Shown here piece after piece: positions 9,719 through 45,470 of a stretch of DNA of 64,000 nt. The translations under genes were made by a program, and so were the position numbers. The stretch is from NCBI GenBank assembly GCA_947172415.1, contig OX359195.1, forward strand, positions 2,294,001 through 2,358,000, written 5' to 3'. This DNA is from Chondrosia reniformis. Taxonomy: Eukaryota; Porifera; Demospongiae; Chondrillida; Chondrillidae. Position 1 is the first letter of the stretch. Each line of letters opens with the position of its first letter. The notes under the pieces were generated by a model. The model made no database searches and had not been told where the DNA came from. It saw nothing but the letters and a program-made list of their open reading frames with translations.

Positions 9719-9733
9719 TATTTATATATATAA

Positions 9734-20286: not shown

Positions 20287-20564
20287 GTTGATAACTTTGA
20301 TCCACGTATGGTGTCACAAAAGGGGATGGCCAAAAATGGCCGTCGAGAGTACTGCCCAATATATGGTATTCTCGTGCCCAGCCCCACTTCCGCAATAATG
20401 GCTGCCGCCTGCGTAAGGTGGGCCTGGCACATTTCGCCGCATTTCTTGGTCTTGCTGACTCAGCATACCAGGATTCTGGAGGGCCAATCAGATTGCTCGA
20501 AAATATTATATTGTAAATAATACTACTATAATAATAATAAAAATTGAAATGTGCGCAGACAGAA
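20287..20564. other. Kinase upstream region / duplication junction
   Basis: This is the 5' flank of the kinase; no clear core promoter recognised. It is locally more GC-rich (20340-20480). The junction with the second duplicated block lies at about 20565. Confidence 0.4.
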
Positions 20565-21509
20565 TTTTGATTCCAACTTGCTGTCTTCCCTATTGCTTAA
20601 CTCAACCACCAAACTCATAGCACCAACCATCGCAATTGCAGGCGCCCCTCTCACCTGCAAAAGAAGATGAGAAACCATTAAACCATTATGTAATACATAG
20701 GCGGCGGAAACAGGGGAGGGGGCACTTGACCTCTCAAAATTTATACCATATCCAATATATACATAATAACTACAGAAATACAACACATGCCAGTTGCAAA
20801 CTCCAAACTTGATGTAACGCTTTATGGGAAGTAACATGAATTATGTGTCCAAAGTTACAGAGGACATTTTGTGCTGAAAATAAGAAAATAAAAGTTAATT
20901 CCATAATCTTTCTCTGCCTGTTTTTTAATGCATGGTTACATTGTTAGATCAGTAAATTAGCATGCGAGTAAACTACTGTAGTAATTTAGATAAGTGGTGC
21001 TTTCACTCTTTGTTCGTATATATCTAGAGAAAAACAACTATATCTTCTTGCTAATACTACCACTACACAACCATGAACTAGGAAAATTGTGGGTCCAAAT
21101 GAACAATAAAAATGACTACTAATGATGATACTGTTAGCTACCTATTTCTTACTTTCATCAACCTTATTGCCGCCCAGCCATCCTCAATGGCCTCAATTTC
21201 CTCATACTCTTGCTTCAGTGGGATCATCAGCTGGTTAAGGATCTTTAGTTTCCCATTTTCGTAGATTATAGACTCAAGAGGTTTAATTTCTTTCTCTTCT
21301 TCCTCAGAGTCTCCAACAGTTACGACACCATCCGTTTCATCGCCATTCTGCTCTATTTTACGAGTTGTATCTTCTTTGGTGCTATCCTCGCTAGATACGG
21401 GAACCAGAGGGTCGGCCTTCGGATCTCGAGGAGGGGAGAAGTCGCGGGACACTCCGACCTTCTTAGAAGTCGAAAGAAATCCTTGTTCGATTTCCGTGTG
21501 TTCTGACAT
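20565..21509 (-). pseudogene. mri1: mri1 5' fragment, copy 2 of divergent block
   Basis: Exon 1 (21509-21153) is complete, open and almost the same as the intact gene (differences near residues 4-13, Q28 and similar), with the GTAAGA donor. Exon 2 survives only from the acceptor at 20654 down to about 20566 (VRGAPAIAMVGAMSLVVELS and a few codons). The sequence then changes to unrelated DNA, so the isomerase active site is absent. It keeps the bidirectional promoter, so an aberrant transcript is possible. Confidence 0.88.
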
Positions 21510-21568
21510 TTAATTTAGCAAAAACTGTTAGACAATCTGCTCAACGTCAACGGTCACGTGGAAGAAAA
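21510..21568. promoter_or_regulatory. Bidirectional promoter, copy 2 (intact V-ATPase C)
   Basis: Fifty-nine bp between divergent ATGs, apparently the same as copy 1, including the GTCACGTGG E-box at 21553-21561. This copy drives the only complete V-ATPase C gene in the window. Confidence 0.6.
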
Positions 21569-24500
21569 ATGGACGAACTTTGGATAGTGTCCGTCCCTTG
21601 GCGAGAGAAAACTGCCGAGGAGGCGTATCAGGAGTTGGTCCGCAACTTGAATGCGTATGCTACTTGTACGAAGTTTTCAATCCCTGACATGAAGGTAAGA
21701 GCACAATGTAGTATTGTCTTGTATCAAAGATTCAATTCTCGCAGATTTCTACTTGTCCTCGAAATGTTTTCCACGTTATATAGTAATAAGACTTATCCAG
21801 GTCGTGTTTTCATGACATTTAATGACTGTTTGTCCTATTCATGGGACTAAAGATGGCGCTTTATAGCTATATAGCTATTGAACCGTTAACTGCATACGTC
21901 TTAGCATTGTTTAAAATTGTTCAATGTATAAAAATGGATCCAGGTCAAAGTCTGCTAGATGAGACCTTAAGGGGTGAGTTGATGTATATGTACAGTGTTG
22001 CAGTATTTGTAAGTTTGACTTATTACTTTAAACCATCTGGTTAGGTATTCCTGTCGCGAAACGTTTTCTACTGCATGTGACAGTCACTGCTGTAATCTGT
22101 CCTCAAGGTCTCCCGTGTCCCTGTGTGGTGTCACCTGCAGGGGTTTGGTGTTTATATAAGCCTTGATACACTGGCACAAGCTAATATAAGTCACACTCCA
22201 GCCTCTTGAAACTATTTATCATGTAACGTCATCAGCTATGTACCAAAAGCCATCAGTGGTAGTTGTTCCATATAGAGCCCAAAGCTACTGCAGCTGTGTG
22301 AGCTATTCCACTGAGAGTGCTACCAGAGTGTCTCTATTGTCTTTCTCTCGCACTCTGACCAGTTACTGGTCTTCTTCCCTTTATACGTAATTGGGATTCT
22401 GTATATGACAATACGTACATCTGTATTATTTCAATATCTTTGAGATGGTTCATCTTTAGTCTTTGAGCATCTAGAGACACAGTGTGTTTCTTGAGAATCA
22501 GATCAGTCACTGAAGAAGATCCCCTGGGCCTGATTCTCAAGAAGCAAACTGTGCATCTAGATGCTCAAAAGACTAAAGATGAACCATCTCAAAGATACGT
22601 TTGGTGCAGTTAGAAGAAATTATCATCTAATGCTGTAATCTGTTACTACGTATGTTGTGATTAGGTGGGTACAATGGACTCTCTTGTCTCCATGTCTGAT
22701 CAGCTGGCCAAGATGGATCCCTCTATTGAGATTGTTGTCAGGAAGCTGGCTCGTTTCATCTACGACATACTCTCCCCAGATGAGAGGGTAAGAGTGAAGT
22801 TAAACTGTTATTTGACTAGCTATAATGTGTATGCAGGAAACGCATGTACGCAGTGTTTCCCGCAGGATTAAATTTGAACCCGGTGCTTAATTTAGCGTGG
22901 GCGTTATTATAGGTATACGAATACTGGGTTGAGGGCTTAGGGGCATACTCCAGGAATATTTTGAAATTTAGGTGTTCTAAGATTGCCTGAGTCTGGTGAA
23001 GTTTTAACCTTCGATATATGTGTACTTTTGTATTATTACATTTCTTTTGAATACCAACCTCAAAGCAGAATATTGGTTTAAGCACTTTAAATAGTTTAAG
23101 TTACATTGTCTGATTTGTTAAGTCAAACATTTCATCCATCTGTCTGCCTTATGGCATCCTGCTGACTCATTATTCAACTAAAATGGCATTGCATGTTGCC
23201 TGACAATCTAGTTTGTACTTTCTCTTCTGTAGCCGAAGTTTAAGGAAAACTTAGTCATTGGACCAAAAAAAGGTGAGAAGAGTTAAATGCCTACTGTTGC
23301 CTGTAAGGCCTACTGCTGCCTGTAAGACCTACAGTTGCCTGTAAGGCCTACTGTTGCTTGTAAGGCTACTGTTGCTTGTAAGGCTACTGTTGTTTGTAAA
23401 GGCCTACCGTTGCCTGTAATTGCCTGTAAGGCCTACTGTTGCTTGTAAGGCTACTGTTGCTTGTAAGGCTACTGTTGTTTGTAAAGGCCTACCGTTGCCT
23501 GTAATTGCCTGTAAGGCCTACTGTTGACTGTAAGGCCTACTGTTGCCTGTAAGGCCTACTGTTGCCTGTAAGGCCTACTGTTGCCTGTAAGGCCTACTGT
23601 TGCCTGTAAGACCTACAGTTGCCTGTAAGACCTACAGTTGCCTGTGAGGCCTATATACTGTATATGTACTTATGTAGCTCATCTATCATATGTACTTATA
23701 TTACATGGCATGTGTAACTTGTTTGTAGTGCCAGTGGATGTGTATGTGAACAGTTTTCAGTGGGACAATGCCCGTTATCCCAGCAAGCAGTCCATTCCCA
23801 ATATACTTGACATGATTAATAAAATAACGAGTGATATTGAAGCAGAATTCAAGAGGAAGACGACCACTTACAACAACTTAAAGTCTCAGATGCAAGCCAT
23901 TGAGAGGAGGGAAAGGTGGTTTGTTAACATGTATATTAAGTATTGTCACTCTCTATTGTTAGTATCAAACAAAGTAGGTCCTGGTTTGAACAGTTGATTG
24001 TGTGAAAAACAAAATTCTGAAAGTGTACTTATCTTTGAGATGGTTCATCTTTAGTCTTTTGAGTGTCTAGATTTGCAGTTTGTTTCTTGATTATCAGACG
24101 TTTTTGACCCTGGAGTCTTCCTCAGTGACTGATGCGATTCTCAAGAAACAAACTGTGTCTCTAGATGCTCAAAAATCTAAAGATGAACCATCTCAAAGAT
24201 AAGTTGACACAGTTTGAAGAATACCCTATCACCTAAAGTTTGCGTAACTGTGTTCTGGTTTATATAACCATTTCCAATAACTTTATATATGTACATATAC
24301 CCCGTTGCCGGGGCAACCGCCTGTGTATATATTTCGTAACCGGGGTATAACAGAATTTAAGAAGCTATATACTGCCATCGGATTCTTAAATCCTGTTATA
24401 CCGGCCCAAATATGGTAAACTAAGATGTTTCTACTTGGAGGGTGGACAATTCTCCTTACATTTAGGACAGTTGGAGTAGTTAGGGCAAGAGCATTCTATA

Positions 24501-27386
24501 AAGTCATCAGTGTTTAAGCAAAACTAACCAGACGCTAGATGAGCCATCCTGAAAGTCCCGCCAAAATAACGATAAGAAGCGACGGAGTATATATCTCTTA
24601 TACCACGGCGCTTCGGTGTATATGGGTTTATATACGTACTCGCCCTCGGGCGCATACTCAGCGCCGTGGTATAACTAATACTAATAATTTAGCTGGCAAG
24701 ATGACGTCCTTGTCTGTGCTGTAACTACTTTTTAATGTACAGGAAGTACCAATAAGGAATTTGTACATTTTTTACGTTATTGAGGTCAAAACCACTTTTT
24801 GACCAATTCAAGGTTAACCAGTATATTTAAATACAATTAAATACATTAAAATGGCCTTAAGGTTGTTACAATGTACAAATTCAAGATTGCACTTTCTTAA
24901 GAGTTGTAATGTTTTCCTTTATTATGAAGTTTGTTTAGTTTGTCTATACCACTTGAATTTCAACATGTACATGACATTTGACTACCCATAAATATTAAAG
25001 ATTTAGTATTCCATTCCTATCCTTCCTTTCATTATCATTTCTTCATTTCTCATTTCTCTTTATATTTCAGAGGAAACTTGATGACAAAGTCATTGTCACA
25101 TGTTGTTGTTGAACAGGATGTAGTGATTGGTTCTGAATACATGCAAACCCTGCTGGTAGTGGTACCAAGATCGCTCTACAAGGACTGGGAGAGAAAGTAC
25201 GAGAAACTCACTGAAATGGTAGTGCCTCGTTCCTCAAAGTAAGTTCTAGAAAGTGAATACTGTACTGGCAGATATACTATGATGCTAATATAGCATTGTC
25301 CTGTCTAGGGGAGGAAAACCCTTTAGTTCTTGCACAATTTACGGTGGAGTTAATAACTTGTAAAATCTAGTGCATGGTTTAAAATATAACACGATATGTT
25401 ACATATAAGTGAATCTCTTAAGGCATGGCTGCTCTGAACGTTTTAATGAAGTCTTTTAAAGTTAAACCCATTCAGGAAAATAAAATGTGTCATGTAAAGG
25501 TCCTTGACTATTAATTTAATGGAGTAATCTAATATATCTTTTGTTATGTAGAAAAATTGCCGAAGATGCTGAGCACGGTTTATGGTCTGTAACCTTATTT
25601 AGAAAAATGGTAGAAGAGTTTAAAACTAAAGCAAGGGAGGACAAGTAGGTAGTAGCCGCTAGTACTCTTAAGAGGTACTTTTAAACCAATAGGATTTACT
25701 GTTAATATTGAGATGGTTTATCTTTAGTCTTTTGAGTGTCTAGAAAAGTAGTTTACTTATTGATAATCAGACGTTTCAACCCAGGATATCTTCTTTAACA
25801 ACTGCATCTCTAGACATGCAAAAGACTAAAGATGAACCATCTTAAAGATAAGTTTGGCTCAATTAGAGTAAATCCCTATCATCTAAGATTTACTCTTATT
25901 CCAATCGGAGGACAGCCGTATCAGTAGCTTAGGATTATTATCTTGTGGACAGCAGCTTCTCCCACTTGGCAGATTCATGGATTGACGGAAAATACATACA
26001 CTACTTGGGTAGAAGTTGAAGCTGTAGATGTTATAAGAATGAATGCCTATAATAGAATAAGGATTCCTTATAACTGCATCGAACTTATCTTTGGGATGGT
26101 ACATCCTTCGACTTTTGAGCGTTTAAAACGCAGTTGGTTTTTCGATTCTTGGTCAAACGTTTCGACCCTGGGGGTCTTCCTCAGTGACTGTGCGTTTTTA
26201 AACGCTCAAAAGTCGAAGGATGTACCATCCCAAAGATAATGAATGCCTACCCATTATCACTGATAGACCATTCAGTGCAGTTAATATTATACAGCTATAC
26301 AAAATTTTCAGTTAGCTTGACTTTCTCATGTCCTTTTTGATTGCTGTTTTCCAGAAAGTTTGATTAATGTTTTTATATATGAATTCGAGAACAGATATGA
26401 AGAATAGGAGACTATAGGGCTGGGAATAGGGGAGTAGACCTCTACTGCACACATGTAAAAGAACACTAGTGGAGTTGATGTATCATTTAATTAAGAATCA
26501 CTTAGCCAGGGACTAGTTTACAGGCACCATTTATACAGCATATGCCAAGAGATAAGTTTACAGTACGTAATTGTAAAATTACATCAATTAGATTTATTGT
26601 ACGGGACTTTGAATACAATCCAAAGAGTATTAAAATGGAGAAGGAGCAGAAGCATAAATTAGAGCAGGAAATTGCCAAACAGTCTGTGAGTATATATATC
26701 TTTTTGTTTTGGTCTCAAGAATCATGATTTTTGTATGTGTGCTAAACTTATTCATTATTACAGGGACCACTCATGAACTGGTTGAAGATCAATTTTGGGG
26801 TTGCCTTTACCTCTTGGATACATTTAAAGGCGCTGAGAACGTTTGTGGAATCTGTTTTGCGATATGGACTTCCTCTGCGATTCCAAGCTGCTGTTATAGG
26901 GGTACGTAGTAGGCTCTAATGCAATTATATAATGGCATTTGGTTGAGGTGTTTGCGGTTGGTAGGATGGCCGAGCGGTCTAAGGCGCTGGTTTAAGGCAC
27001 CAGTCTCTTCGGAGGCGTGGGTTCGAATCCCACTTCTGCCAATTTTTTGTTTTTTTTTCTCTTAGCGTTCATTCCTTAATTTCTTCTTATGTGTATATAT
27101 AGCCCAAGAAGTCTGAAAAGAAGGTTTTAGCTATTTTAAAGCAGCTTTATGATGACCTTGACACTAGATTTGATGTTAAGGATGAAGTAAGCTTGATAGC
27201 CAAGATTAATTTTGTAGTTTCTGTGGTTATTAGTTATTGCTAGAATTTGTACTATATATTATGATGCTACACACTTATTCCATATTCTCTCTATTTCAGG
27301 AACAAATAGATCTTCCTGGAATTACGTCTCAAGATTATAAACCTTATGTATTCTTTAAAGTTAACACAGACTTGCATAGTAAATAA
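21569..27386 (+). CDS. atp6v1c: V-type H+-ATPase V1 subunit C, complete
   Basis: Subunit C joins the V1 catalytic head to the V0 membrane sector and controls reversible assembly of the proton pump. Ten exons: 21569-21694, 22665-22787, 23233-23272, 23729-23915, 25071-25238, 25552-25644, 26592-26685, 26764-26901, 27103-27186, 27300-27386. Phases agree throughout, giving 379 residues (human C1 is 382). Recognisable blocks are [94 protein letters not shown] and [17 protein letters not shown] near the C-terminus. Exons 1-6 are duplicated at 13380-17410; exons 7-10 exist only here. A tRNA-Leu lies in intron 8. It is convergent with the LRR-Ig gene (stop at 27789). Confidence 0.95.
22435..22597. mobile_element. 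Palindromic MITE (hairpin family), intron 1 copy 2
   Basis: Counterpart of 14251-14414 with a few substitutions and a one-base deletion in the left arm. It was present before the block duplication. Confidence 0.8.
23290..23653. repeat. Minisatellite, intron 3 copy 2
   Basis: Same ~19-bp unit as 15111-15455 with slight differences in repeat content, so the array has changed little since duplication. Confidence 0.9.
24030..24201. mobile_element. Palindromic MITE (hairpin family), intron 4 copy 2
   Basis: Counterpart of 15832-16000; the right arm ends CATCTCAAAGATA here. Confidence 0.8.
25705..25850. mobile_element. Palindromic MITE (hairpin family), intron 6 copy 2
   Basis: Counterpart of 17471-17616. 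Confidence 0.7.
26086..26238. mobile_element. Palindromic MITE (hairpin family), inserted only in copy 2
   Basis: Starts TATCTTTGGGATGGTACATC and ends with its reverse complement; the loop contains CGACCCTGGGGGTCTTCCTC. In copy 1 the flanks are directly joined (AGAATGAATGCCTACCC near 17810). With about 40 bp of leading sequence, this is a post-duplication insertion bounded by the repeated word AATGCCTA. Confidence 0.85.
26960..27041 (+). tRNA. tRNA-Leu (anticodon AAG), intronic
   Basis: 82 nt. Acceptor GGTAGGA pairs with TTCTGCC (with G-T pairs) and the discriminator is A. The D-arm carries the A box TGGCCGAGCGG. Anticodon stem CTGGT/ACCAG encloses loop TTAAGGC, so the anticodon is AAG. A class II variable arm (CTCTTCGGAG) follows, with T-arm GTGGG/CCCAC around TTCGAAT (B box GGTTCGAATCC at 27020-27030). 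No intron, no encoded CCA. A T-run from 27043 serves as Pol III terminator. It lies in sense orientation inside intron 8 of the V-ATPase C gene. Confidence 0.95.
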
Positions 27387-27788: not shown

Positions 27789-28078
27789 TCAACAAGATCG
27801 ACATTGGCAAGAGTTTATTACTTCAGTTTCGACAGCTCTGTTGACCACTCGTGATTCCTCAGAGCAAAACATTATGAGGATCTCTCGGCTCTTATCTGGA
27901 CCTGGAGAACAGCAGAGTTGTGTATTGTCAGCTGAGAGGTAGGTTGGATAGATGCTACTTTGACAGTAGCCTTCACAGTAGTGTTCCGTGTGTTCGGCCA
28001 CACTGATGCAGTTTCCTACTATTATAAAGGTTCTACGGCTCTTCAGCTCACACTGTCTAGCGCTACATGTTCCAGAGC
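27789..28078 (-). other. C-terminal cystine-knot (CTCK) exon
   Basis: Last exon of the LRR-Ig gene, starting after TTTCTGCAG in phase 1. It encodes GSGTCSARQCELKSRR, then single Cys (GNC), HYCEGYCQ, a CC pair (QLCCSPGP), IMFCSEES and a terminal CQCRSC before TGA. The spacing C-EGYC, CC and C-x-C-x2-C is the pattern of C-terminal cystine-knot domains of Slit, von Willebrand factor and mucins, which mediate disulfide-linked dimerisation. That the protein dimerises is inference. Confidence 0.8.
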
Positions 28079-31000
28079 CTGCAGAAATATAAACCACAAG
28101 TATTCACATCAAAAAATTGTAATACTTCCTTGGATTTGTATTTTCGACTAGTGATATAGGCCACAAGTATAGTGTTCTGATAAGGTGAAACTTTCAATAG
28201 TAATGATTCCATAGAATATATGTCTCCCTAGCTCTATCTAGTATCACTAACTATTACCAAGTGTTTTGTATACTCTTATGAGGAGACACTTTAACGCGGT
28301 CAAAAGAAATAGGATGAAACAAAGACAGCTACTCTAAAACCATCAGTTAAAAGGACTTATGTATCTGTAGTTATAAACTATTATAAACAGAAATGTACCA
28401 AACACACTTACCAAAAGAAGTTACAGTCAAATAAGCAGATGCTTCAATGAAACCAGCTGGATTGCTTGCAGTACAAGTGTACCTACCAGCATCAGATTCA
28501 TTAAAAGGTGCAAATAAAATCAAGCGTTTTCCATTGTCCATGATCTGGTAACTTTCAACAAGTTCACCAACTGTTTGGTTCCCCTTGGTCCAAGCAAGCG
28601 TTGGTTGGGGGAGGCCACCAGCTTCACACTCAAACACCACTTCACTGACATTCAAAGAAAGATCCAGAGTAGTGTCCTTTGGTTTTACAATAAGATATGG
28701 GACAACTGCAGTAAAAAGGCAAACTCATGGCACTAATGAATGCACTTGTGATTGTGAAATTGAAGGAATAAGTAAAAATTGAAATATGCTGACTAAATGT
28801 ACAAAATACAAAAGAACATATAAAACTTATGTATATGTATATTTAATTACCCTGTACACAAAACCCTATAGCCTATATAATATAGGTGGTTGTGGTTTAT
28901 GAGATTACCGTGAACAATTAGGTCTGCTTTCTGCACAACTCCATTCAATCTGCACTCATACTTGCCAGAATCCAAAAGTGTCACTGAAGGAATAACAAGA
29001 GCTCCATTGTCTGAAATCTTTACATCATTTTTAAACCACTCTGGTACCGCCACTATTTGGCCAATTACTGCAGTGCAGGTTAAAACAGCAGTAGATCCTT
29101 CAATAACAGTCTGAACCAAAGGTGTCACTGTTAGCACTGTTTCACCAAGTGATTCATCTCTATTTTTAACTATTACATTATAAACTTGTGCTCTGATGTT
29201 TCCCTCAAAGCTAAATATACATTCATATTTGCCACTGTCTTCTTTTTTCACTCTTAGCAATCTTAGAGTACCATTTCTTAAATCTTGAAATCGGCTTGTA
29301 GATTCAGAAATATCACTATCATTGTGACGCCAGTAGTGGAACAAATCTGTATCGCTTTCTACTTCATTTGTGCAGTTAATGATGACAGTTTGTCCATTAA
29401 GTGCCACCACATTGTCATCAAAATATTGAGGTTCACCAATAGCAGTAGATGGACTGCCAGACTCAGGGCGAGAATCAATGGTTCTGTTCACATCTGGAAA
29501 ACCCATGGGTCCCGTAATAGGAGAGGTCTCTGGTGTAACACAGTCTTCATTGGCTAATGGCAGAAACACACAAGAAGATATACGGACGTATACACGCATA
29601 TTATAGTTACATAAATCCAAGTACGTACGTACATGAGGTAAACTTTAGTGAATTTGACCAAAAGATTGTTTAATTACTCTCGAAGTATATATGTTCTATT
29701 CTACTCATTTTAAGATGAAATATTAACTAAGATATGAGATATAAAATCATGGATATAATGTAAAATAAAAGGTATTGATCAAACATATAGTGTACATACA
29801 AGTACATATGTATGTGGTATATTGCAATGAAGACCTTACTGCAGCTGTTCAGTAAGTGTGGCTGATGCTCAAATAACTATCAAACCAAAAGCTCACAATA
29901 CCTACCCTTATTATTTACATGCATACATACATAAAGCCTTTAACATAAAATATTTGAGAGAAAGACTCACCTGTAACTAGAATCTCTACTTCCGACTCAG
30001 CAGTACCAAAGTTATTCCACACAAAGCAAGAATATTTTCCCGAGTCCTCAATTGCAGCAACTTGTACGATGAGACTTTGTACACCACCAAAATAATTTTC
30101 AATGATAATATTTCCACCTGTGCATGCAAAAATACAAAAAATATAGTAAAAACAGTGTAGTTGGTAAATCTGTCTCAACGTATAAATAAAACTTCCAAAT
30201 CTACAGAATGTAGGCATAAAGAATGAATACATTTGTACAGTTGAAATAGCTATATAATCTGCCTACAGTCAAAATTACAATCTGCCATTATTTTTGTTTC
30301 TCAATGCTATGTACTACATAAGGCCAATCCAAATTACACTTTAGTTTCCCATCCTGCCCAGGAGGGTTTCATTCAGGGGGTAAGAGTTGCCCCCCGAATA
30401 TCAGTTGCCACTTAACTATTTTATAAAGGCATCATGCCGCCCCTGCAAAACTTTAAAAGTCAATTTTTGCCCCCCCCCTTACAATAATTTCTGGATGAAA
30501 CCCTGCCAGGTATCGAAAAACATACAGGATTTATTATGTCCATGTACTAGAAAAAGAAGTACGTAGCTTCCTGTAATACATGCAGGCAGCAAACATGAAA
30601 CTAAAATGCAATTTGAAGTAGCCTAATGAATGTTTCTGAGTAGATAATTAAACATTTGGTTAATCTGCCAAACTCAATAATGTGCCAAAATATGCATAAA
30701 TCAATTGCTGCACTGTATATTAGAATACAAATAAGGCAAACTCACTTGGAACTACTTCCACACCATCTTTATACCATCTTCGCATAATCTCAGGTGTACC
30801 TTTAGACGCACAGTCTAAGAAGAAACTTTCTCCTTGAAACACAATTTGACTCACTGGCTTAACAGTAATCTGTGGTTCGTCTACATACATACGTACATAC
30901 CATATAAAAAAGGTCACAATGTGTCTATGTACAGAACCGTTGAACACAGAGTATATGTATTATGTACGTATATAGCAGTTGACATACTAAAGAGAATGTG

Positions 31001-34000
31001 GAGAACTTCTACATGTGGTTAGGTTCTTGCATGATAATATGATCAGGTAACCACACTAGCTGAATTGAGAAACGTATTTCAGACATCTTTGGAAAGGGTC
31101 ATCTTTCGACTTTGGGAGAGTCTAGAGACGCAGTTTTTTGATTCTTCTTTCTGCCAAACGTTTCGACCCTGGGGGTCTTCTTCAGTAACCCAAAGTTGAA
31201 AGATGACAAAGATACGTTCGACACAGTTAGAAGAAATCCTTATTCTATATTTCAGACACTTCAACTCAATCCAGTGACTTCATCAGAGAAGGATAGACTA
31301 TAATTTGGCTACTTTGGTTACCTGATCAAATCAGCATACGCACGAAATAGAAGTAGTTAAGCAACATTTCTACAGAATTTTAATGAGTTAACTCAGCTCA
31401 AGATATGCCTTATGTAAGAAACCTAACCATAGTTTCCTTTCAAACTAAAGGATTAGTTTGAATATTGACAATCCAAGTCTGTGAATGTTATGTATGTGAG
31501 ATTAACATGAAAAGTTGCATGCACTCCTCAAACCCATGATCAAAACAAGCTTCTCCTGCTCTTTGCTAATCGCAATATACATACCATAAGTTATACGTAG
31601 TGTATGTATGTAATATATTTGTGTAATTTCCTTCCAAATGTACCCAATCTTGAAACACAATTGCTTCAACAGACACACTTATGTTAAGATCTCCAGTAAC
31701 ATACCACTTTCTGTTACTGTCACTTTTATACTATGTGAAGCCTCTCCTGCTACATTCTTGGCTAAGCAAGTGTACTCCCCTGAATGCTGCGCTCCTGCAA
31801 TGTAGATGGTAAGTTCATTGGCTTCTATAATAAAGTCATCATCTTCCTCAAAAATTTCCATATTGTTCAGTAGCCATATAATATCAGGAGGCGGAACTCC
31901 CTGAGCATCACAATTAAGTGTGAAGTTGCTTCCAGGCTCAATATGTGGAGTGATCGGTGGTAGTATCACCTCTGGCTTTACTACAGTAAGAAATAGTACT
32001 TGAAATGACACCATGTGAATTAGACATACATAGACACAGGGGGGAAGAAAAGAAGTAAAAGGAGAAACCTCTTGTATCCTCATAAAAAGCTGGCACTAGG
32101 TTTAGTTCCCTACAGGTTTTTACTCTAAAGTAGATGTAGCAAGTAATCTTGTCTTAGATTATTTATACTATAGATAGTGCAATAACTTTTGGCAAATGTT
32201 TTTAATTAATATAGATTTTGCCTGCTTTAGCCAACACATAGGTTATGCCAACCTAGCGAACACCATAACATTGTTACATTTATGTTGTACTACATAGCAA
32301 AGTATACCTACCTCTGGTGATTAACATAAATGATCTGGTGTCTACTCCCTCGGAGTTTGTTGCCACACATTGATATAAGCCTCTGTCCATCTCCTGCACC
32401 TGAAATAAACAAAGGATGGTGAGGGGGAGAGACATGTGAATCATGCACATTACATAACAGGTAAATTCCCAACTTTTACTTGAAATATTTTCAAAATGCC
32501 AGCTCTACTGTCAATCCTAATTCGTATTCCATTATCTAGTGTAGTTCCATCTTTTTGCCATTCAATAATAGGTTCCGGGACACCCTCAGCCTGACAGATA
32601 AATGTAATCTCTTCATTTACATTACGAGAAATAACCTCTGGTTTTGTGATGAATTTATCACTAATGACAGGGGCTACAAAAAAACAAATCTCACATGTAG
32701 AAAAACAGAAAAATGTCACTATATGGTTGTTTAGTAAATTTAGAATATTACCTTACCTGATGCATTTCCAAAAAATCCTGATACCTCCAAAAGTGAATTC
32801 TTTTCACTTTGTCCTATTCTGTTACGAGCAAGACAACTGTAATATCCTTCATCCCAGGGCTTCAAATTAGTAATAACTAAGCTGCCATCTTTAACAATAA
32901 AAATGCGATCACCTCCCTCAATAGGTCGACCTAAAGCACATTAAAAGTAAAAGTTTTGATAAGTAGAGGAATTTAAATCAAAAAGTAGCTACAAACTACA
33001 TGTAAATATTGTAATAGACAATTGCTATAAAAAGAGAACTACAGTACAGTGAACCCTCGTCAATCTGAATAGCTACAGGAATGTGTTGACATTAGTGAAT
33101 TTGTTCGAATTACGTAGTGAAAGTTTTACAAAGTGTGCTATAAATGGAGTTACGCACATGTATACAGAAGGACAACAAAGTATTGTACATGTAGCTACTG
33201 CAGTTAATACAAGAAAGATATACACAAGTTCTTAATTAAATATTTCAGGCACCTCTTTCTGACCTTTATATAACCATGTTCTTTCTGGTGGAGGTTCTCC
33301 AGAGACCAAACAATGAAGTCTAACAGTTTCTCCAACCACACTCAATAATCGTGCAGGTCTGACTTCTAAAACTGGTTGACCTAAGTGTACAAAATGGAGG
33401 TTTAGTGCACAAGTATGTCTCTAAAGTATGTGGCTCACTATGAACTGTGTGCATGTATATAAACAGAGATAGAGGGACCAGATGGAGTGCTAAGTAGGAT
33501 GTAGGTATAATATGACAAATGCGTTGGGCATTCCATAAGATTAGCTAGTATTCATTCTTTGTGCAGTATGTATCTGAAAGGTATTGATTACGACGTGCAT
33601 ATTGAACTGAGTCTATGTCTATACACATATAGTCAAGCCATAGGCCCCACCAGGTCAGTGCCATATTCCATCAAACAACCTGATAGGCTATTAGTATCAA
33701 TGGACCACATAATATGCATATTGGTTCTATGATTGGGTGAAATTATGGAGTTATGGAGCTATGGACGCTGCTAAAAGGCTGCCAGGGGGATTTAAATGAT
33801 ATTGTGCAAGGACTACTAAAATTCAGAATACTAAAGGAAAGAACATGAATAGAGCAACCATGACAACTAAAGAAAACAAATCAAGAATAATTTAAACTAC
33901 ACTACCAAATTTGGAAAATGGCAAATTATTTTTCTGCTGTAAGAAATGTGGCTGTGAATATCATGTTTACACCCATATACATATGTACGCACATATGTAC

Positions 34001-37000
34001 GAACCTTGGGAAATCAAATAATTGTATATACAGCAAGTGTACTATATGTACGTATGTGCTACAGGACCCCTATATGATGACTTCTTGTTAATGAAAGATG
34101 TCAAACAAGAGATCACCACATGTAGGCCCAAACACGGTCCGAGGAACACATGTAACATCACTATACTATTGGATAGTTTGACTATCAAATTGGAGGAAAT
34201 CTTAATTAACCAATCATCCTAATTAATTAAAAATCCTTCTATGTACGTTACGTAGCTCCTAATTAAATGGTCATATTATAAATTCTGGTCTATAGTCACA
34301 TTATACGTATATACGTAGGTTGTTCATTACTTACGCAGTACACTAAGTTCTACTGAATGAAACTGTTCTCCAGCTGCATTAGCTACTCTACAGACATATG
34401 TCCCTTGGTCGTCAGGTGCTGCATTCTCAATTACCAGTGTGCCTATTCCAGGTCCCTGTACATTTGTCACACGCCTTCCTCCTTCTGTGGATACCACATT
34501 TCCATCTTTGATCCAAGAAACTACAGGAGGAGGTCTACCATTTGCTGTACAAGGAATTTCCACGCGATTAAGTTCCTCAACAATTACTTCAGTGGGCAGA
34601 TTGGCCCTATCAAAGGATGGTATTGCTACAATATAAAATAGACAATGATTATTTATATGTACATTTGGCATTTGAAAAATGTACACAATCTAAGAACTGT
34701 AAATGCATGTATTATTAGACTACATAGAAAAGGGTTATTTCAAAAGTTTAATTACACAGCACAAACATAAATGACTTAACAAGGTCCTTAACGTTTAATG
34801 AGAATATTGTTAGTTTCTATAATTACTGCTAGCTAATGGAAAAGGTTATCTTTTATAACCTTAATACTGATATAACATACATATGTATGTATGTATTGAT
34901 ACACAAAGCCATAAGTTATTATTCAGAAGGTAAACTTCTATGAGAACAGTATTATGTAGAAAATAAATTTCTACTTACAGTATACAGTTAGAAATGCTCT
35001 TCTACTTGTTAAAAGTCCAAGACGTGATGTAGCAGTGCAATAGTAGTAGCCTTCGTCACTGCTTCTACTGTGCAAAATAATCAGCCTCTCATCATTCACA
35101 AAGACTTCACCAGAGGATGTGACTTCCCTTTCAATGCCTGTTTTGTTACTGATAAAGAACCAGCGAATGTCAGGCTTAGGATTGCCTGCGGCTGAGCAAT
35201 AGAATTGGGCAGCTTTGGTTGGAGGAACCCCAAGGTCTTCGGGTTGCCTAGAAAAATAGGGTACCACTATATAGAAGTGATACAATGCAAAAATAGGAGT
35301 AAAGACATATAATAAACAGACAAATTAAGTGGTGTTCAAAAGACAATGATTTAAAGAAAAACGAATGATCATGTAAAAATGTACATTTGAGGGCCATCCT
35401 GAATACACACTACAGCATAGAGGCATTCAGTGACTTACATGTTACATCCACGTTAGCAATTAATTGGTCAACTCCTGCCTCATTTCTGGCTATACACATA
35501 TATTCTCCCTTGTCAGCACTATCAGCATTCAAAATGACCAAAGTCTGACCATCATTAATTAGCTAAGGAAAAGACATATGCATATAACACAATGTTTTAT
35601 ATAATGTATGATGAAATAATATTTGTATTTGTTGTGTTTATAATGAAAAGGTAGGTATATATTAGAGTATCAGCAACACTTATATTCGAGAAATAGATGC
35701 TTCAAATCTTAGGTATTCTCAACAATGATGTATGATATATGTATGTGTTCTGATGTATACAAATGATTACTTGTGTAGTGATTACCGCTTTGCAATTGAT
35801 TCTCTATAAGTTTAATGATATGCTTGAGAATATATAGTACATTTTATAAAGTAACAATGAATTAATTAATCCAACAAAGGTGTGAGTATGTATAGATGAT
35901 TTTGGGTGAAACTTACACTTACACTAATAATACTATCTTACATTCCTATATGTTTAGTCTATAGATGATATACAAATAAACAAACCCTTATGAGTGTATT
36001 GTTGTTAAACGTCTGTTATGAATAAGAACAGTCTTGCTAGTTACCCAGATACCTACGTACCTGTTTTTTATGTAGTAGCTGTCAATTGTCAAAATTTATC
36101 TACCCATTCATTCTACATTTCTACTCACCAACCCATCAAACCAATCCCAAACAAATTTACATTCCCTGTAAAACATCCACTTATGCAATAAACAGTCAAT
36201 ACAAAGGCTCTCACATCACACATACATACTTCATATTCCGTTCCAAAGAAAGCATCCCTTATTGGCCAACCATTATAGAACCAATCCACTGTAAAGTCTG
36301 AATCAGACATAACAAAACAGTTAATTTCTCCTCTGTCACCTCTTGCAAATGTTACGGCCAAACTTCCATTGCTCTTATCAATCTTCGGAGACAGATTTGC
36401 AATAGGAACTAGAGTGTTATAGAATATGAGTAGTAAATAAAGACAACAAACAACATACGTACTATTTAGGTTTAAGAATACCAACTACCAATATCTCCAT
36501 GCATGTAGTCTAAGTTTTTAACTATTTAAAAACTTTAAAAAAAAATATATATATTTATACTTTTAAGTGAAAAGAAATTGCTATATACATCAGAAACAAG
36601 GTTCATGTGATAAACTTCATATAGGTACATGGTACGTACATATATATGTAACTGATGTACATAGATTTGGATTTACTAAAAGGATCCAGCAACTGATGCC
36701 ATCACCTGACTAATTAGGAGAGTCTACTGCTCAAGTCAGACATTTTATTGGAATTCATAACTTTACATGTTTTTACATAATTCTTAAACCTAATAATCTT
36801 TGAACATTGTCAAAAAGGGAAGAACCTTGGGAATATCCCATTGAATGTTTCTCCCAGTAATGTTAATTGCTTCCATGATATTATATATGTACCTCACCCG
36901 TATAGTACGTACACGTATCTAATACATTTCTTTGTTCTTTACTATGTTTTACATTTATTTTTATGAAACATAACCTTTGTATATTATCCATTGTTATTTT

Positions 37001-40000
37001 ACTCTGTAATGTCCTTAAACTCCACAAGTTCCCCTATATTATATTGTATGAACCATATATTGACTGCGTGTGTCTAAAGAATGCAAGATTACAAGTTTTA
37101 CCTCCTAAGTAATTCTGTGTACTAGTTCGTTCAACTTAAGCTTCATCTTGTAGTCACAATGTTTTACTTACGTATACGTAGGTAAATATAAATCACAATC
37201 TATTTAATTCCTGATATAAAGTATGTATATTGTATATTAAACAGATGACTTATCTACTGCTGACACATAAATTTATTGGTGACCGGATTAGACAGGTTTC
37301 ACAGCACGGTACTGCAGTGTGTGCGGTTGAATGCACAAGGTGATTTACTTTCAACTTCCAACTGATACTGAATTGTGTCAGAGCCAAGGATGTTTCTAAC
37401 TGTACATTGATATACCCCTTCATCACTAGACATTATGTTTATCAACATTAGTTCATTACTAATAGTTACAGTGTGCCTCGGAGGAATTGGTAAGGCGTCT
37501 GCTCGTTCCCAAATATGATCTAAATCTTCAGTTGAATCAATCCGAGGATCACAGGGTAATTTAACATTTTCCCCTACAAAATGCTGCTGAAGTATTGGTG
37601 TGCTGTCCTCTCTGTCAAAGGATGGTTGTCTAAGCCCAATACCAGAAAGAAAAACGTCAATCCCATTTGAAGCCACACCCTCGGAATTACCTAAGAAGAT
37701 GATTCCCAATTGAAATTAAATGTTATAGATGTACTTATGTATATACGTTAGTATGTATGTACATTTTTAAAATGAAACAACGTACGTACATATGCATATA
37801 TTAAATTCATTGCCAGAACAATTTGGTCTGTACGAATAATATGCACACATAATGAGGGTATGTGCATTTTAGGTACGTACAGCTTTCAGATTTACGTACC
37901 TGCAGCACAATAGTAACTGCCTTGATGATCAATTGTAATATTAGGTATAATAAGGGTATTCTCTTCCTTCACATAGCCTTTGCGGGAGGACACTAGTCTT
38001 CCGTTCCTTGACCAGTGCCATGAAGGTTGTGACAGACCACTTGTATCACAAGTCAGCTTTAAAGTGTCACCAGTAAATACAAACTTTTTAGATTTTTCAA
38101 TTCTAACTTCGGGTGTGGCTAAGGAAGAAAAAGTAAACTACTTGTCACATTACTATTAAACATCCACAACACTAACTTTGTCAGGGTACATACGTAAATA
38201 CAGTTTTTTCAAACAGGAAGTCAGTTAAGTATCTATGAACAGCATGTTTGATCAACTTATACTTGTGTAATTACGTAGCATGGTACAATATTGAGCATAA
38301 TCTGTTAAAACTTATTGTACGTATACACTAAAGGTGATATCAAGCAAATATATAGTAGATGGAAAGTAATACATATTGTACCTAAGCAAAGTACTATTAA
38401 AAAGGCTCCTATATACATATGTGTATGGGTGTTGTAGACAATACAAAATTTAATTCTTGGACACAGATACATAATAACTTGTACTCCAGTACAAATTAGC
38501 TAAATACACATAAATTGTAAGGTATAAATTCTCCCTTCCAAAACCAATCAATCTTTCACTGTATATAAAACATTTCACCTTTTAGGGTACACAAATACAT
38601 TCACAAACTCTTTTGATAGGACAGCATAAACTCACGACAAAGTAGATTTTCATCTTGCAAGTGGACAATATGGAATTCATCTAGAGCTTTAGGTCGGGAG
38701 CACCTTGGACCAATACCAAGGTTTGGCCTTGTTTTCATCCATTCCCACAACCAAATTGCATCACAATCACAACTAAAATCATTGCCATCAAAGAATCTAT
38801 AAAAACATAAAAATATTAGTATCCATTCTCTATACGTATGTCATACAGATGTTACAATGTTCATATGCACATATGTAGATGATGCAGTACGTATGAAGCA
38901 ATGATTATACAACTGCTACTTAACGTACAACCTATTACAGACATTGGATCCAAGCAAATATGCATTAGAGAGATATAATGTATGAAATTTTGAATTGATT
39001 ATTTTAACAGACATGCCCTACAGCCAGTGGCTGGTCTACTTGGTAACTTAGCACTTCCAGAATGTTACCTAGTGGTATATAATACTGATAAGGAGTGGTA
39101 TTCTTTGAAAGGCCTTCCAGTACAGTGGTACATACGTACCTTAGTTAAGAGTACCTTTTTTCCTGAGACCTTTTTAACATAAAGGTTAATATCTGATTTG
39201 CTGTGATGTATTGCATGTATGCAGAACCAGCTAATTTGGCTGTATATACTATGATTGATAGAGGATATAATTTGCTAACTTACATGACTCGCAAACTTGG
39301 TAAACTGTTGAAGGCCTCTGATAGGATGTTTCGAATTCTATTTCCACCAAAATGCCTACAAGTAGAGAAAGAGATGTCCTAAGGTAATTTTATCTAAATA
39401 AACTGAAAGAATAAATGATATCTATCAAATTGAAAACTGTTGCACTTTTAACATGTACATATACACATTAAAAGAAAGAGTTGGTGCTTAGTAGATTCAG
39501 TACTGCTGCTTCTATGATTTTAATCAATATATAAAATAACTCTCTGCATTCATAAATTTCTATATGACTAAATTGTAAAAACATTTATATATGCCAATGT
39601 AATCTATGCATGCATGTATTCTATTTTGATGGATCAGGTGTCAAGCGTATTATTTTTCTACTTAAGTACAGAATTCAGGATATTTTCAGTGTGTCTAGTT
39701 AATGCATATAGATTTTAAGATTGAGGTAGGCATGTAGACATGAAACGTAACATAATGCAATGTTGATGCATGAACCATCTTCAATCAATTTCTCAGCTTA
39801 GGAGAAAAAGGGCAGTTAACCAGTGTATTCTAAAGAATAAACTACATATATTGCATTGCAAAGTCTTATCTCAAACACCTACACAGACAGTAATGGATTA
39901 AACCATTGAACACAAGTATGCATGTCATTGTGAGCATATATATTAGCTTTTGCTTATAAATCTCTGATCAGTTTGAAACTGTCAAATCTTGACATGTATC

Positions 40001-43000
40001 ATATAGCGGGAATTTTGTTGGTATATATTTTGTAGAATAGTTCTTCTGGAGTTTTCGCTATTTAATTTTCAAGGAATACTTGCATGTATGCTATATTATT
40101 ATTCATAGGTGATTGTGATACAATTTCAGGGTGAAAAAAATACAATTTGAGTGAAATTCTTTATTCCTCTTAAAAAAAACTATATACATATGTATAGTAA
40201 AGGGACTCTACACTTAGTGCTCCTTCGACTTCATTAAAACCTCAAGTCATGAATATCATTAAAACCAATTGAAACCAACTAGGCAACCATTAAGTAATAT
40301 TGACCTCCCAAAGTATCCTTACAAATGACTAATACTGTAAATCCCAAAATTAAAGCGGTCCCGTTCAAGTTGCACATATAATATCATGGAATTACAAAAT
40401 TAATGGTACGTAAGTCATTTTGTCCATGTGACAATGACGTCATGTCTCTGTCAAGATGTGGCTGTATCAGTTGTTCGCTACCAGATCCAGAGGTAAAGAG
40501 TTGCAGGACACTTGAAGCAGAAGTCCGAGAAGCAAATAAGGTACTGGTAGAGTTGTGAAGGAAGAGACCAAGCTCACACCATCCTAAACTTCGCGCAAAG
40601 ATTAGCAAGTTTGCCGCTTTATCTAGCAACGAAGCTGCTGTTGATGTTTAAAGGCCACTATTCTACTGATACCATTACAATCATTAAATAAAAGGGACTC
40701 CATATCAATGTATCAAATACCTTTTGTACAACAAAAGGAAGAAAAAGAAAATTTCAACTCTCAGCAGCTAGGGGACCCCATTGCCTAGGATGAGAACTAT
40801 TAATTTTACAAGATAAGACCTTAATTTTTTCTAATGTACTTTTCGGCTTACATACGTATGATAGCCTTTCACAATAAAACTAAGAAAAACTATCTGATTG
40901 ATGATAGACACTGCTGTACATGCATACACACAAGCACACGCATATATAAATTTGAAACTTCATACCTAAAATTCTACCACTTAATAGATAAATCTGTCAA
41001 ATAGCAATATATCCAATACAATTAGATTAGCCAGGTGATGCTAGTCAATAAGTATAAAAACCAGTGCTTCAATTAATATTTAATACACACAAAACCACCA
41101 ATGAATGTATCAATAATGGAAAGTGATAGTATGTGAGTGAGTGCCAACTTTTATTGGTTCTGCTGGTGGGTATCCCTTGGTAACAGGTGCAGGTGTACTG
41201 TGTTTTGAGTATTGCCAATAAATTAACACAGTTTGCATGCAATTGAAACCAACAAAGGGAGCATGTTTATGGACACTGTGGCTTCTACATAGCTTTATTT
41301 GGTCAAAATGGAGCTTATGACCAAACAATGTCATACATGTGCCCCAGTGGAGAAGATGAAAGAGGATCAAAGAAAGGAGAAGAAAGAAAGACTTCCATAT
41401 CTTCATCCAAAAGCTCTCTTCAGGTTTAGTTCCATATAGGCTTTTTACAGAATAGGCATACAGCATGTAGAAAAATGGTGTATTAGATTTTACGTATACT
41501 AGCATTTACAAAGACTATACGTACGTAGAGCAACTTACACGTATGACAATCTAGACAAATTATCAAAAGCCTTGCTGTGGACAACTTCAATTTGGTTATC
41601 ACGAATAGACCTACGTACAAGATACCAGAGAGTCAGTTGTATTCACTCCAAAATATATAGGACATTTTGTGCACATCCTATGTACATAAGTCATACACAT
41701 ATAATTTTACATACGTAACTCCATGAATTAAATCCTCTCATTTATGTTACTGTCAAACGTGTTTCCAATGTAATATAATCACACATATATACACACGCAC
41801 ATGTATACACACACGTTTGAAAACTTACAATCTTGTCAATAACGGAAGATTTCTGAAAGTTCCAGACTTCAGATTAGTCAGTTTATTGTCATCAAGGTTC
41901 CTGAAGAGTGATGACTGTGGTATGTATATATGCATGGCTGTATTACAGTTGTAGTTATAGTAAATACTCTAAGCCCAAGTACATACAGTTTAATGCTGCA
42001 GAGGTATCTTTCTAATTAAAGCACACCCAGGTTGTGGTTCTGTACCTACATGATAGTGCATCCCAGCAATGGGTCAAATGCCCCGATTTCAATAGTCCTT
42101 ACTCCAGTATTGTAAACTTCACTGTACAGAAGAGGTAGAAAATTTAAATATTAGAGTTTTTAAAATCAATATAATACATATGTATACTTGGAAATATACT
42201 TTAGTGGTACAGTTACAAGAAGCATCACTTTTAGTACACTTACAGTTGTCTTAGTGATGTCAGACCTTCAAATGTTCCATTTTGAAATTGTTCTATGTTG
42301 TTGTCATATATATTTCTAATGATTTTGTAAAGTATGAAAATAATCAAATGTATTGTATGTAGCGTAAAGATAATTGCTCTACTTTGCACATTAATACCTT
42401 GAATACTTTCAACAGTTAACATTAATCTTAGCTTAGCTAAAGCTATGGGAACAATACAAAGGCAGTGTTTTAATATAAGGATTGTTACTATATATATATT
42501 TCCTTGAATCTTTAAATGTCAGAGCAAGGAAACAAAGATCTCTTTTTTCAATAATGTGTTTGTGTTCATGGGTACATTGATAAGTCACATAGGTTACAGA
42601 GTAGCCGCAGCTGTCATGAAAGGTATGGATCTACTGAATTAATCATAACACCTTCATTGACACATTTAGCACATTTAGGTGGATTTTTAAAATTCCAATT
42701 ATATAAAAATTATTTCAAATCTTATTATGGATCTACCATTATACACAGTACATATACATTACATCACATAAGAAATTACAGATAAAATCCATATATGTAT
42801 ACAGGAATTAACTAAGCCAGCTCTTTCTCTAACAGCTAACTAATCATTATGTATAGTATGTAAGTGTACTGTATAAATTATATATTCATAGATATATAGA
42901 TGTACCATAATTTGGGAAATTTCGTGGTTTGGGCCAACCACGAAAATATCTTAACAACCAGAATTACAGTATATATGCAAGTGTAATGAGTAAAACGTTA

Positions 43001-44608
43001 AAAACTTACAAAACCTGCAAACTGTTTAGGTTCTTGAAAGAACCAATTTCTATTGATGCTATTTTGTTGTTTTGAAGGTGGCTACAACAAACAGAAAGTA
43101 ACTTATATTACGCCAAACAACATACATTGAATGGTGGAATTCCCAGAAACAGCTGTCTGGCCCAGTGGAGCAAAGAAGAAAAAAAACTCCAGGACCTGTA
43201 TCTTCATCCAAAGCTCTCTCCAGGTTTAGTTCCCAAAGGCTTTTTTACAGAGTAGGCATGGCATGTAGGAAAATGGTGTATTTGATTTTTCATTGTATGC
43301 CTTATGGATCACATATAATTAAATCTGAAACAACAAATATTGTCAACAAATATTTTTAGTCAAAAAAATGTAAAAAAACAACTTCATATACAGAATATGT
43401 CTATAGAGCCAAGGATGCAGTTTCATGCACACAATAGTATGAGGTAAATAGGCTTAAAAATCTGCATCCTAATACACAGTATATATGTAGGTGAAAATCT
43501 ATAATAGATAAAACCTGGAATGCTTTATCTAAACAAACATACATAAGTAAGTACCTTAATGAACCACACTTATTTCTTTACACAGTTAACCAAACCAACA
43601 ACAGAAGGTGGGAGATAAATAAAAACCCTTGCTATAAAACTTTAAAGCTACCACACATAGTAATCTATTAAGCAAACCTAATAGATTACACAAACAAATC
43701 CATTAAGTACGTACAGCAAGTTTATTTGACCACAACTTCAGTAATTGTGGTTACACTTAGACAAAACCACAGACAAGACTGCATTTTGAAACAATATGGA
43801 TACAACATTTATGCACAATGACCATTACTAAGTGAAATGATATATCAATAACATTTATTACTTCAATGAGCACACAAAGGACGCCATGTTGACATTTAGA
43901 GAACAGAACAATACCTCACAAGCAATTTACCACATTACCCAATTACTAGTAATTGTCCTTAAGTGAAAGTAAATTGCTTACTAATAATTGTCATAAACAA
44001 TCTCAAGCACTTCAAATATAGTACAACTGTTCATTAGAATACCACTAAAAGACAAATTGTATAGGTTTTTGTTTACTAGTTCAATGATTCCCCCTGAAAA
44101 GTGTTTCTTTCGATAAATTATTGGTGAACTTAATGAAAAGATAATTATATATATACATTAATATAAATATTCTTAAATATCAAAATATTGGTCTCTTAAT
44201 AGAATTTTCCGATATTAATTGCACTCACAGATAAAGCAGTTGTGTTAATCCAGCCAAATCAGTGGCTCTGACAGCTTTGATCGCATTATCACCTACATCG
44301 CTACAGTAAAAAAAGAATGGCCATTAAAACAAAAAATACTTATTCCTGAGTACAACCAGAAGGCGACCTAACTATTAACGTATCGGGTTAGTTTACCGAA
44401 AGAAAACTCACAGATGAACTGTATTCCTAGGTAAACCGGCAGGAATGAATCCCAGGTTCTTAGCGCGACAATCTACAGCATACTGCGTACCCGCTGGATC
44501 GAAGGTAAAGCAGATACACTCACGGGGACACTGCGAGATAACATGGCGAATCAGCAAGAGAACACAGGTGATGGCCACAAGAGCCTTCATATCTCCAGCA
44601 GACTGCAA
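27789..44608 (-). CDS. Secreted LRR-Ig(12)-cystine-knot protein, 24 exons
   Basis: Exons in order: 44608-44412, 44300-44229, 43081-43010, 42315-42244, 41900-41829, 41610-41539, 39355-39284, 38796-38636, 38118-37900, 37690-37349, 36408-36230, 35562-35439, 35266-34979, 34625-34335, 33380-33264, 32930-32757, 32673-32480, 32399-32312, 31980-31705, 30880-30746, 30117-29971, 29553-28909, 28705-28412, 28078-27789. Phases match at every junction. From the Met at 44590 (signal peptide MKALVAITCVLLLIRHVISQ) the total is 4,575 nt, 1,524 residues. Exon 1 holds LRRNT cysteines (CPRECICF). Six 72-nt phase-2 exons each hold one 24-residue LRR. Exon 8 is LRRCT (FSCDCDAIWLWEWM). Exons 9-23 encode twelve Ig domains with C...W...YxC pattern. 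The last exon is an 11-Cys cystine knot. No membrane span seen. The donor after exon 15 (GTCAGA) is the weakest site. Peroxidasin has LRR-Ig but ends in a peroxidase; Slit ends in a cystine knot but lacks Ig. Confidence 0.88.
30353..30510. mobile_element. Short inverted-repeat element in LRR-Ig intron
   Basis: CCTGCCCAGGAGGGTTTCAT at the left pairs imperfectly with ATGAAACCCTGCCAGG at the right; G- and C-runs occur inside. Single copy in the window, in the intron splitting Ig domain 9. Confidence 0.5.
31084..31214. mobile_element. Palindromic MITE (hairpin family), diverged, LRR-Ig intron
   Basis: CATCTTTCGACTTTGGGAGA pairs with CCCAAAGTTGAAAGATG. The loop CGTTTCGACCCTGGGGGTCT matches the other family members, so it is the same family in an unrelated gene. 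Confidence 0.75.
41345..41480. repeat. Dispersed repeat, copy 1 (LRR-Ig intron 6)
   Basis: Shares CAGTGGAG...CATCTTCATCC, AAAGCTCTCTTCAGGTTTAG and AGGCTTTTTACAGA...GTAGAAAAATGGTGTAT with 43155-43285 and, reversed, with about 52625-52770. It is a non-coding interspersed repeat; full length and ends are unclear. Confidence 0.55.
43150..43290. repeat. Dispersed repeat, copy 2 (LRR-Ig intron 2)
   Basis: Same repeat as 41345-41480: CCCAGTGGAGCAAAGAAG, ATCTTCATCCAAAGCTCTCT and GTAGGAAAATGGTGTATTTG. The plus-strand ORF here is the repeat, not a gene. Confidence 0.55.
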
Positions 44609-45470
44609 AACGTATTAGCAGCTAGTCCATCCAGCCCCCGGATAGGTGTGTACATACTATTGCATAATATCGTTTTGCTCTCTGCGGCCTTGACAAAGGC
44701 TATTGTGTCCTAAAATGGCCGTCTTATTTGTTTCCATAGTAACAAATTACTTGTTTTAAAATAATTAATATATAGAAGGAAACTATATCCGAAACCAGTC
44801 CGAAAACCATGTGCATTAGTTACAGTAGTTAGTATCTATGGCATGCAGGATCATGAAATGGACGATCTAATTACTGCGTTCACCATTAAAAGTATTGCGC
44901 AATTTATCCAGTACAAAAGAGTTCGCAATTTGGTATGCTACATATTATGCACCTAATTATCCGGTGGCATTGCGGAAGTTGCTAAATTCTCGAAAACAAT
45001 TGCTTATCTCTGGCGGACTCCCTTATCATGACAGAGGCTGGCTATAGCTACTCCCAATATTATAAATATAAACGATTCAAACTACGGTAATTTAACGGTA
45101 TTTCTTTTCAGAATATATATACTATTATCTAACATTTAAAACTTAATGCACATTTGCACCTATACAGCTCAGAGACCTACGACAAGATTTAATAATAATG
45201 ACTTTCATTAACTATTCTAAAGTGTACGGTATATCGAGCGCCGATTCTAAACAAGTTACGTAGTCATGGTTAGATTCACATAGTACATGTATACTGATTG
45301 TGTGTACTGTGAAATAATGGTTGCATACTTCCTGCATTGTTTTAAACTTTCAAATGTGCATACTTTCAAACGCCTTGATCAAACATCTAGCACGTTCACA
45401 TACTTGAGTGAATCTTATATTATGTGGGAAGTATTTCTTTATACCTATATACATTGTTTATGGCCTTTAG
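44609..45470. other. Upstream region of LRR-Ig gene; no gene seen
   Basis: The start of the LRR-Ig gene (minus) lies at its left edge and a GC-richer patch at 44620-44720 may be its promoter. I looked for upstream exons of the kinase fragment at 45471 on the plus strand and found no kinase-like reading frame. Confidence 0.5.

Follow-up and report, generated by a model that had tools for sequence, protein, structure and literature searches.

We describe a gene in a 64,000-nucleotide window of the genome of the sponge Chondrosia reniformis (contig OX359195.1, here C7, positions 2294001-2358000), whose predicted product combines a leucine-rich repeat (LRR) block, 12 immunoglobulin (Ig) domains and a C-terminal cystine knot (CTCK). 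The gene is open over 25 exons, and its protein has a signal peptide, no membrane span and 11 cysteines in the CTCK. Our preferred interpretation, to which we assign a probability of roughly 0.6, is that this single gene encodes a secreted, disulfide-linked, two-headed dimeric glycoprotein of the matrix or of cell adhesion. The leucine-rich head would be a binding module, the 12 Ig domains would form a long jointed rod, and the cystine knot would join two chains by disulfides to give a two-headed molecule able to bridge cells or matrix components. Such a protein would work like IGSF10/MXRA5 with a dimerising tail in the style of VWF or Slit added. We infer the dimerisation, the binding partners and the matrix location.

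The coding sequence lies on the minus strand (window positions 44590..27789, corresponding to C7:2,321,789-2,338,590). When rebuilt from the DNA, its 25 exons gave 4,647 nucleotides and one open frame of 1,548 amino acids. The ATG is at 44590, 18 nucleotides inside the end (44608) given in a preliminary description of this DNA, and the stop codon at 27791..27789 is the only stop in frame. All 24 introns, of 80 to 2,183 nucleotides, are bounded by GT-AG, and the phases match at every junction. The seven LRR exons are each 72 nucleotides long with phase 2-2; from the exon of the C-terminal LRR cap onward, 14 of the 16 junctions are phase 1, and at the other two, within Ig3 and within Ig7, the phase is 0. 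The preliminary description had reported 24 exons and 4,575 nucleotides with consistent phases; the phases and the single frame stand, and the count has to be corrected by one 72-nucleotide LRR exon that was missed. We picked the splice sites by hand while consulting the domains; the phase agreement is strong, yet not a blind test.

Since the joining of exons is known from genomic DNA alone, the gene model might be an artefact, made by fusing two or three neighbouring genes (LRR-Ig1-5, Ig6-12 and CTCK) by hand. A duplicated segment, described below, stops in the intron between Ig5 and Ig6, which means that the two halves differ in their duplication history. Such a split would have to account for 24 of 24 junctions being in phase at GT-AG sites, and for Ig5 being whole in the window gene only, among the three copies. 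Neither the open frame of the first Ig6 exon nor that of the CTCK exon has a methionine before the domain, though an unseen first exon may lie upstream, and without the CTCK exon the Ig12 frame runs 13 residues into the intron and then reaches a stop. We consider an artefact very unlikely, and we infer that the LRR, Ig and CTCK exons belong to one transcript.

All 1,548 residues were searched against Pfam, submitted as four pieces. The LRR block was matched by LRR_8 (E 3.3e-41), and its top PDB match was LRIG1 (4u7l, E 1.7e-45) over residues 59-281, reaching the end of the C-terminal cap. Exon 1 (44412..44590) contains the start codon, the signal peptide and the N-terminal cap (C21, C25, C27, C41). 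The repeats follow on exons placed by exon joining and Pfam: LRR1 at 44229..44300, LRR2 at 43010..43081, LRR3 at 42244..42315, LRR4 at 42050..42121, LRR5 at 41829..41900, LRR6 at 41539..41610 and LRR7 at 39284..39355. The exon of the C-terminal cap (C237, C239, C260, C281) is at 38636..38796. The preliminary description had recommended profile searches for LRRNT, LRRCT, I-set and CTCK. In our search, LRR_8 and I-set were found, LRRNT (18.2 bits against a cut-off of 25.8) and Cys_knot stayed under their cut-offs, and LRRCT had no match in the whole protein. We assigned the caps because of their cysteines and the LRIG1 alignment. The LRRCT profile, run over the genome, is uninformative: it failed to recover the cap in the window itself and gave one weak match at another place.

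Pfam recognized 12 I-set stretches, nine in the piece with Ig1-9 and three in the piece with Ig10-12, and in each of the 12 Ig domains the two paired cysteines are separated by 41-53 residues and a tryptophan follows the first of them by 12-14 residues. Ig1-9 are contiguous and are followed by one linker of ~45 residues with an unpaired, free cysteine (C1144) and then by Ig10-12. Most of Ig1 is on the exon at 37900..38118 and its end shares an exon with Ig2 (37349..37690); both were placed by exon joining, Pfam and cysteine/tryptophan spacing. Ig3 is split between 36230..36408, placed by exon joining, and 35439..35562. Ig4 occupies 34979..35266, and Ig5 (34335..34625; exon joining and copy comparison) is intact here and frameshifted in both truncated copies. 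The remaining exons, like the second of Ig3 and that of Ig4, were placed by exon joining and Pfam: Ig6 (33264..33380 and 32757..32930), Ig7 (32480..32673 and 32312..32399), Ig8 (31705..31980), Ig9 (30746..30880 and 29971..30117), the linker with Ig10 and Ig11 (28909..29553) and Ig12 (28412..28705). In the PDB, the Ig region was most similar to generic I-set proteins, namely contactin-2, titin, DSCAM and Robo2, and LRIG1 also matched.

In a hydropathy scan with 19-residue windows, only those starting at residues 1-4 exceeded 1.6, which is the signal peptide, and the next best reached 1.55; at this threshold there is no membrane span after the signal peptide anywhere in the protein. The claims of a signal peptide without a membrane span and of the order LRR block, 12 Ig domains and cystine knot are thus borne out, the latter by Pfam profile matches, cysteines and PDB alignments. 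The protein has 46 cysteines and 15 N-glycosylation sequons, and none of its 1,548 residues form an RxRR/RxKR site. Its one RGD tripeptide, in the first exon of Ig3 (residue 491), is given little weight.

The proposed dimerisation depends on the CTCK exon (27789..28078), which holds 11 cysteines, the end CQCRSC and the stop codon. This exon matched Pfam Cys_knot with E 2.4e-4 and 21.8 bits, and its PDB match was VWF (E 3.8e-4), with the next matches, chains of the TGF-beta family, starting from E 0.15. Cys_knot was listed for none of 10 shuffled versions (five full, five with cysteine positions kept) in a search that asked for E up to 10, although most matches above about 0.1 are lost in HMMER's filters. 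The match therefore does not follow from composition alone or from cysteine spacing alone. In TGF-beta-type dimers the chains are linked through one interchain cysteine, which comes first in a CC pair; by this pattern, the interchain cysteine of the sponge protein would be C1508.

The VWF CTCK (PMC8626975) also has 11 cysteines, of which eight form four intrachain bonds (2724-2774, 2739-2788, 2750-2804 and 2754-2806) and three form dimerising interchain bonds (2771-2773' twice and 2811-2811'). The PDB alignment pairs seven of these 11 with sponge cysteines. Sponge 1476, 1487, 1491, 1508, 1509 and 1524 align with VWF 2739, 2750, 2754, 2773, 2774 and 2788 (VWF numbers assigned by spacing), and the last pair, sponge 1545 with VWF 2804, is in a shifted register. 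Because of this shift, we used the CxCx(n)C motif to assign 1543/1545/1548 to VWF 2804/2806/2811. Sponge 1462, outside the aligned stretch, was assigned to 2724 by spacing alone, and 1457 is an extra cysteine. As for the interchain positions, VWF 2773 corresponds to 1508 by alignment and 2811 to 1548 by motif only, and 2771 has no partner. The dimerising tail of the preliminary description is borne out as plausible by this 11-cysteine exon and its Cys_knot and VWF matches, and dimerisation through the CTCK is likely.

The genome that we searched comprises 15 contigs with 117,379,552 bases. A PF00007 profile search found no CTCK exon in it besides that of the window, with the caveat that intron-split knots could escape. 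A second candidate at C1:5559614 (36% identity, E 0.04) was rejected, as its frame looks by eye like a reverse transcriptase. Searches of prokaryote and viral contig collections gave no relatives (CTCK exon searched in both, Ig10-11 exon in the prokaryote set only), which says nothing about other sponges.

The preliminary description knew of no family with LRR, many Ig domains and a CTCK. For the exact order, we also found none among the open-access papers listed by our searches, seen mostly as titles and the starts of abstracts, which is weak evidence of absence. No LRR, Ig, CTCK family was met in the parts seen of a paper on sponge cystine-knot hormones (PMC4079206), and none of the terms cystine, leucine-rich, LRR, immunoglobulin and Ig domain occurs in the main text of a sea-anemone matrisome paper (PMC12549020). 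That description did overlook IGSF10 and MXRA5, two large proteins that combine LRR and Ig domains. IGSF10 is described (PMC4888853) as an N-terminal cap, seven LRR and a C-terminal cap, a disordered region, two Ig, a second disordered region and 10 Ig; it shows no clear membrane span, and a putative cleavage releasing its N-terminal part has been reported. Another paper calls IGSF10 large and secreted and names MXRA5 (adlican) as its paralogue (PMC2235866); capped LRR and Ig-like domains are described for MXRA5 as well (PMC10511426, PMC5192817).

The sponge protein resembles IGSF10, as described there, in being large, in its seven LRR between two caps, in its 12 Ig domains and in the lack of a clear membrane span. 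It differs in arrangement, with 9 + 3 Ig domains and one ~45-residue linker in place of 2 + 10 and two long disordered regions. It also has a CTCK, a domain unmentioned for IGSF10 or MXRA5 in the available portions of the four papers (PMC4888853, PMC2235866, PMC10511426, PMC5192817). No IGSF10 or MXRA5 chain was among the best 60 of 260 PDB matches with the LRR query or the best 60 of 128 with the Ig query. The agreement in the counts 7 and 12, compared by description only, may be coincidental in view of the different layouts (2 + 10 and disordered regions in IGSF10, 9 + 3 in the sponge). Given IGSF10, LRR plus 12 Ig domains is not new; the novelty narrows to the additional CTCK, a combination that we did not find described.

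Other families share parts of this architecture. Peroxidasin is secreted and has LRR followed by Ig, as the sponge protein does; it has four Ig domains rather than 12, and Pfam gave no haem peroxidase or VWC match in the whole sponge protein. LRIG1-3 share the capped LRR block followed by Ig, and LRIG1 was the best PDB match of the sponge block, whereas LRIG proteins have a membrane span and three Ig domains and the sponge protein has no span after its Ig domains. With VWF and the gel-forming mucins it shares a CTCK of 11 cysteines at the extreme C-terminus with a CxCx(n)C end (CQCRSC in the sponge), at a Pfam score under the cut-off; it differs from them in having no VWD, TIL or C8 match and in the empty position of VWF Cys2771. 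Slit is secreted, with LRR at one end and a CTCK at the other, a likeness which is again subject to the sub-threshold score of the sponge knot, and it has four LRR blocks and is not known to have an Ig rod.

The likeness to Slit raises the alternative of a diffusible guidance or patterning ligand, whose LRR head would engage an Ig receptor and whose CTCK dimer would cluster that receptor. Both proteins have LRR and a CTCK, yet the sponge protein has one LRR block against the four of Slit, and the EGF and laminin-G domains of Slit are not among its Pfam matches. Mutations of IGSF10 disturb the migration of GnRH neurons (PMC4888853), which would fit a guidance role. We regard this alternative as quite unlikely, and a matrix or adhesion role appears at least as likely as a guidance-ligand function.

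The gene has truncated copies on the same contig. A genome search with the whole protein, in which 30 of 224 candidates were scored (150 of 821 in a companion search, so that distant paralogues may escape), gave 35 matches among those scored: 16 at the window gene, seven and eight at two other sites of C7, and four on C1. The C1 matches, with 29-48% identity to the Ig region, belong to a multi-Ig gene (C1:10258001-10276000) that we set aside as an orthologue; by eye it has many Ig and FN3 domains and no LRR. Copy 2 (C7:2446371-2456891, compared up to C7:2457000) matches window 34254-44770 at 98.0% DNA identity, and copy 3 (C7:2554679-2565628) matches 34254-45177 at 96.7% and in pieces to 47354. 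The segment common to all three (34254..44770, minus strand) ends 81 nucleotides into the intron after Ig5. Both copies preserve the lengths and the splice dinucleotides of the 14 exons from the N-terminal cap through Ig4, while Ig5 is one base short (290 versus 291) with a stop soon after; by alignment, the place of its donor reads GT in copy 2 and AT in copy 3.

Between copies 2 and 3 the match extends over 18.6 kb at 98.3%, past the end of their match to the window gene, and for this reason they probably derive from a single truncated duplicate that was itself copied again. The window gene is likely the parent, because its Ig5 is intact and it has the full 3' half. Over 1,995 coding nucleotides, it differs from copy 2 by six synonymous and two nonsynonymous codon changes and from copy 3 by six and six; between copies 2 and 3 the counts are 10 and six. 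Against a neutral expectation of 78% nonsynonymous changes, the binomial P is 0.002 for copy 2 and 0.03 for copy 3, without correction for transition bias, which suggests constraint on a translated LRR-Ig4 frame.

These copies bear on another alternative, that of a secreted immune or allorecognition receptor, in which the LRR head and the Ig rod would bind molecules of microbial or non-self origin, the CTCK would add avidity and local duplication would produce soluble shorter forms. The two partial duplicates do retain an intact LRR-Ig4 part, the 5' end of the gene is ~11 kb from a NACHT (NLR-type) frame, and DNA a few kb past the break in both copies resembles window 62.6-63.9 kb, downstream of that frame, at 84%. 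The codon changes are mainly synonymous (6/2) or even (6/6), however, without the enrichment of amino-acid changes seen in arms-race genes, and the duplication is regional, in that other stretches of the window are duplicated too, for example one with a frame like V-ATPase subunit C. A receptor of this kind is unlikely in our judgment. A further and tentative extension of the dimeric matrix interpretation, doubtful at present, is a sponge family, so far undescribed, whose LRR-Ig12-CTCK members form covalent dimers, with the two nearby copies making shorter, knot-less LRR-Ig4 forms as possible monomeric competitors of the dimer.

Several observations weigh against a dimeric matrix or adhesion protein. 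The Cys_knot score is about 2 bits under the curated cut-off of 24 in the protein search (21.8) and just under it in the genome search (23.9), and structure prediction of the CTCK exon reached a pLDDT (predicted confidence) of only 36. VWF Cys2771, which takes part with Cys2773 in two of the three interchain bonds, is unmatched in the sponge CTCK, and its empty position speaks against a fully VWF-type dimer. In people, mutation of VWF 2771 leads to von Willebrand disease type 2A/IID, and mutation of 2811 spares dimerisation and secretion (PMC8626975). The constraint test spans LRR-Ig4 rather than Ig6-CTCK and does not distinguish the copy in which the changes arose, and no second species with an LRR-Ig-CTCK gene was found among the prokaryote and viral contigs, the only ones searched.

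Should the transcript prove real, an animal that has no neurons would own an IGSF10/MXRA5-like protein of LRR and 12 Ig domains with a dimerising knot. This would bear on the origin of LRR-Ig matrix proteins, which may be ancient or may have been repeatedly assembled by phase-1 exon shuffling, and it would provide a concrete candidate for a cross-linker of the collagenous sponge mesohyl.

The rest of the window contains other genes and duplications. An IF-2B (initiation factor 2 subunit) family frame lies at 10799-11827 (minus strand, E 5e-77), with a 97% partial duplicate at 706-1891. The intervening 1894-8622 (minus strand) has duplicated stretches with 88% and 85% DNA likeness, and its frames resemble a multi-span membrane protein by eye; two of them had no Pfam match at E 0.01. 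Positions 8623-8969 and 9375-9721 are 347 bp each and 100% identical. A tandem duplicate pairs 12483-17818 with 20680-26049 in two pieces, at about 98% and 96% identity, and the frame at its start weakly matches V-ATPase subunit C (E 0.002, under the cut-off). A protein kinase frame at 19141-20313 (minus strand, E 5e-33) is open over 391 amino acids. On the other side of the gene, the NACHT frame, of an NLR-type gene, is at 55279-57009 (plus strand, E 2.6e-28), and frames at 47815 and 52172 resemble death-fold domains by eye, that at 52172 without a confident Pfam match. Finally, a tRNA match at 26960-27041 (plus strand, Rfam 53 bits) lies about 750 nucleotides past the stop codon of the LRR-Ig-CTCK gene.

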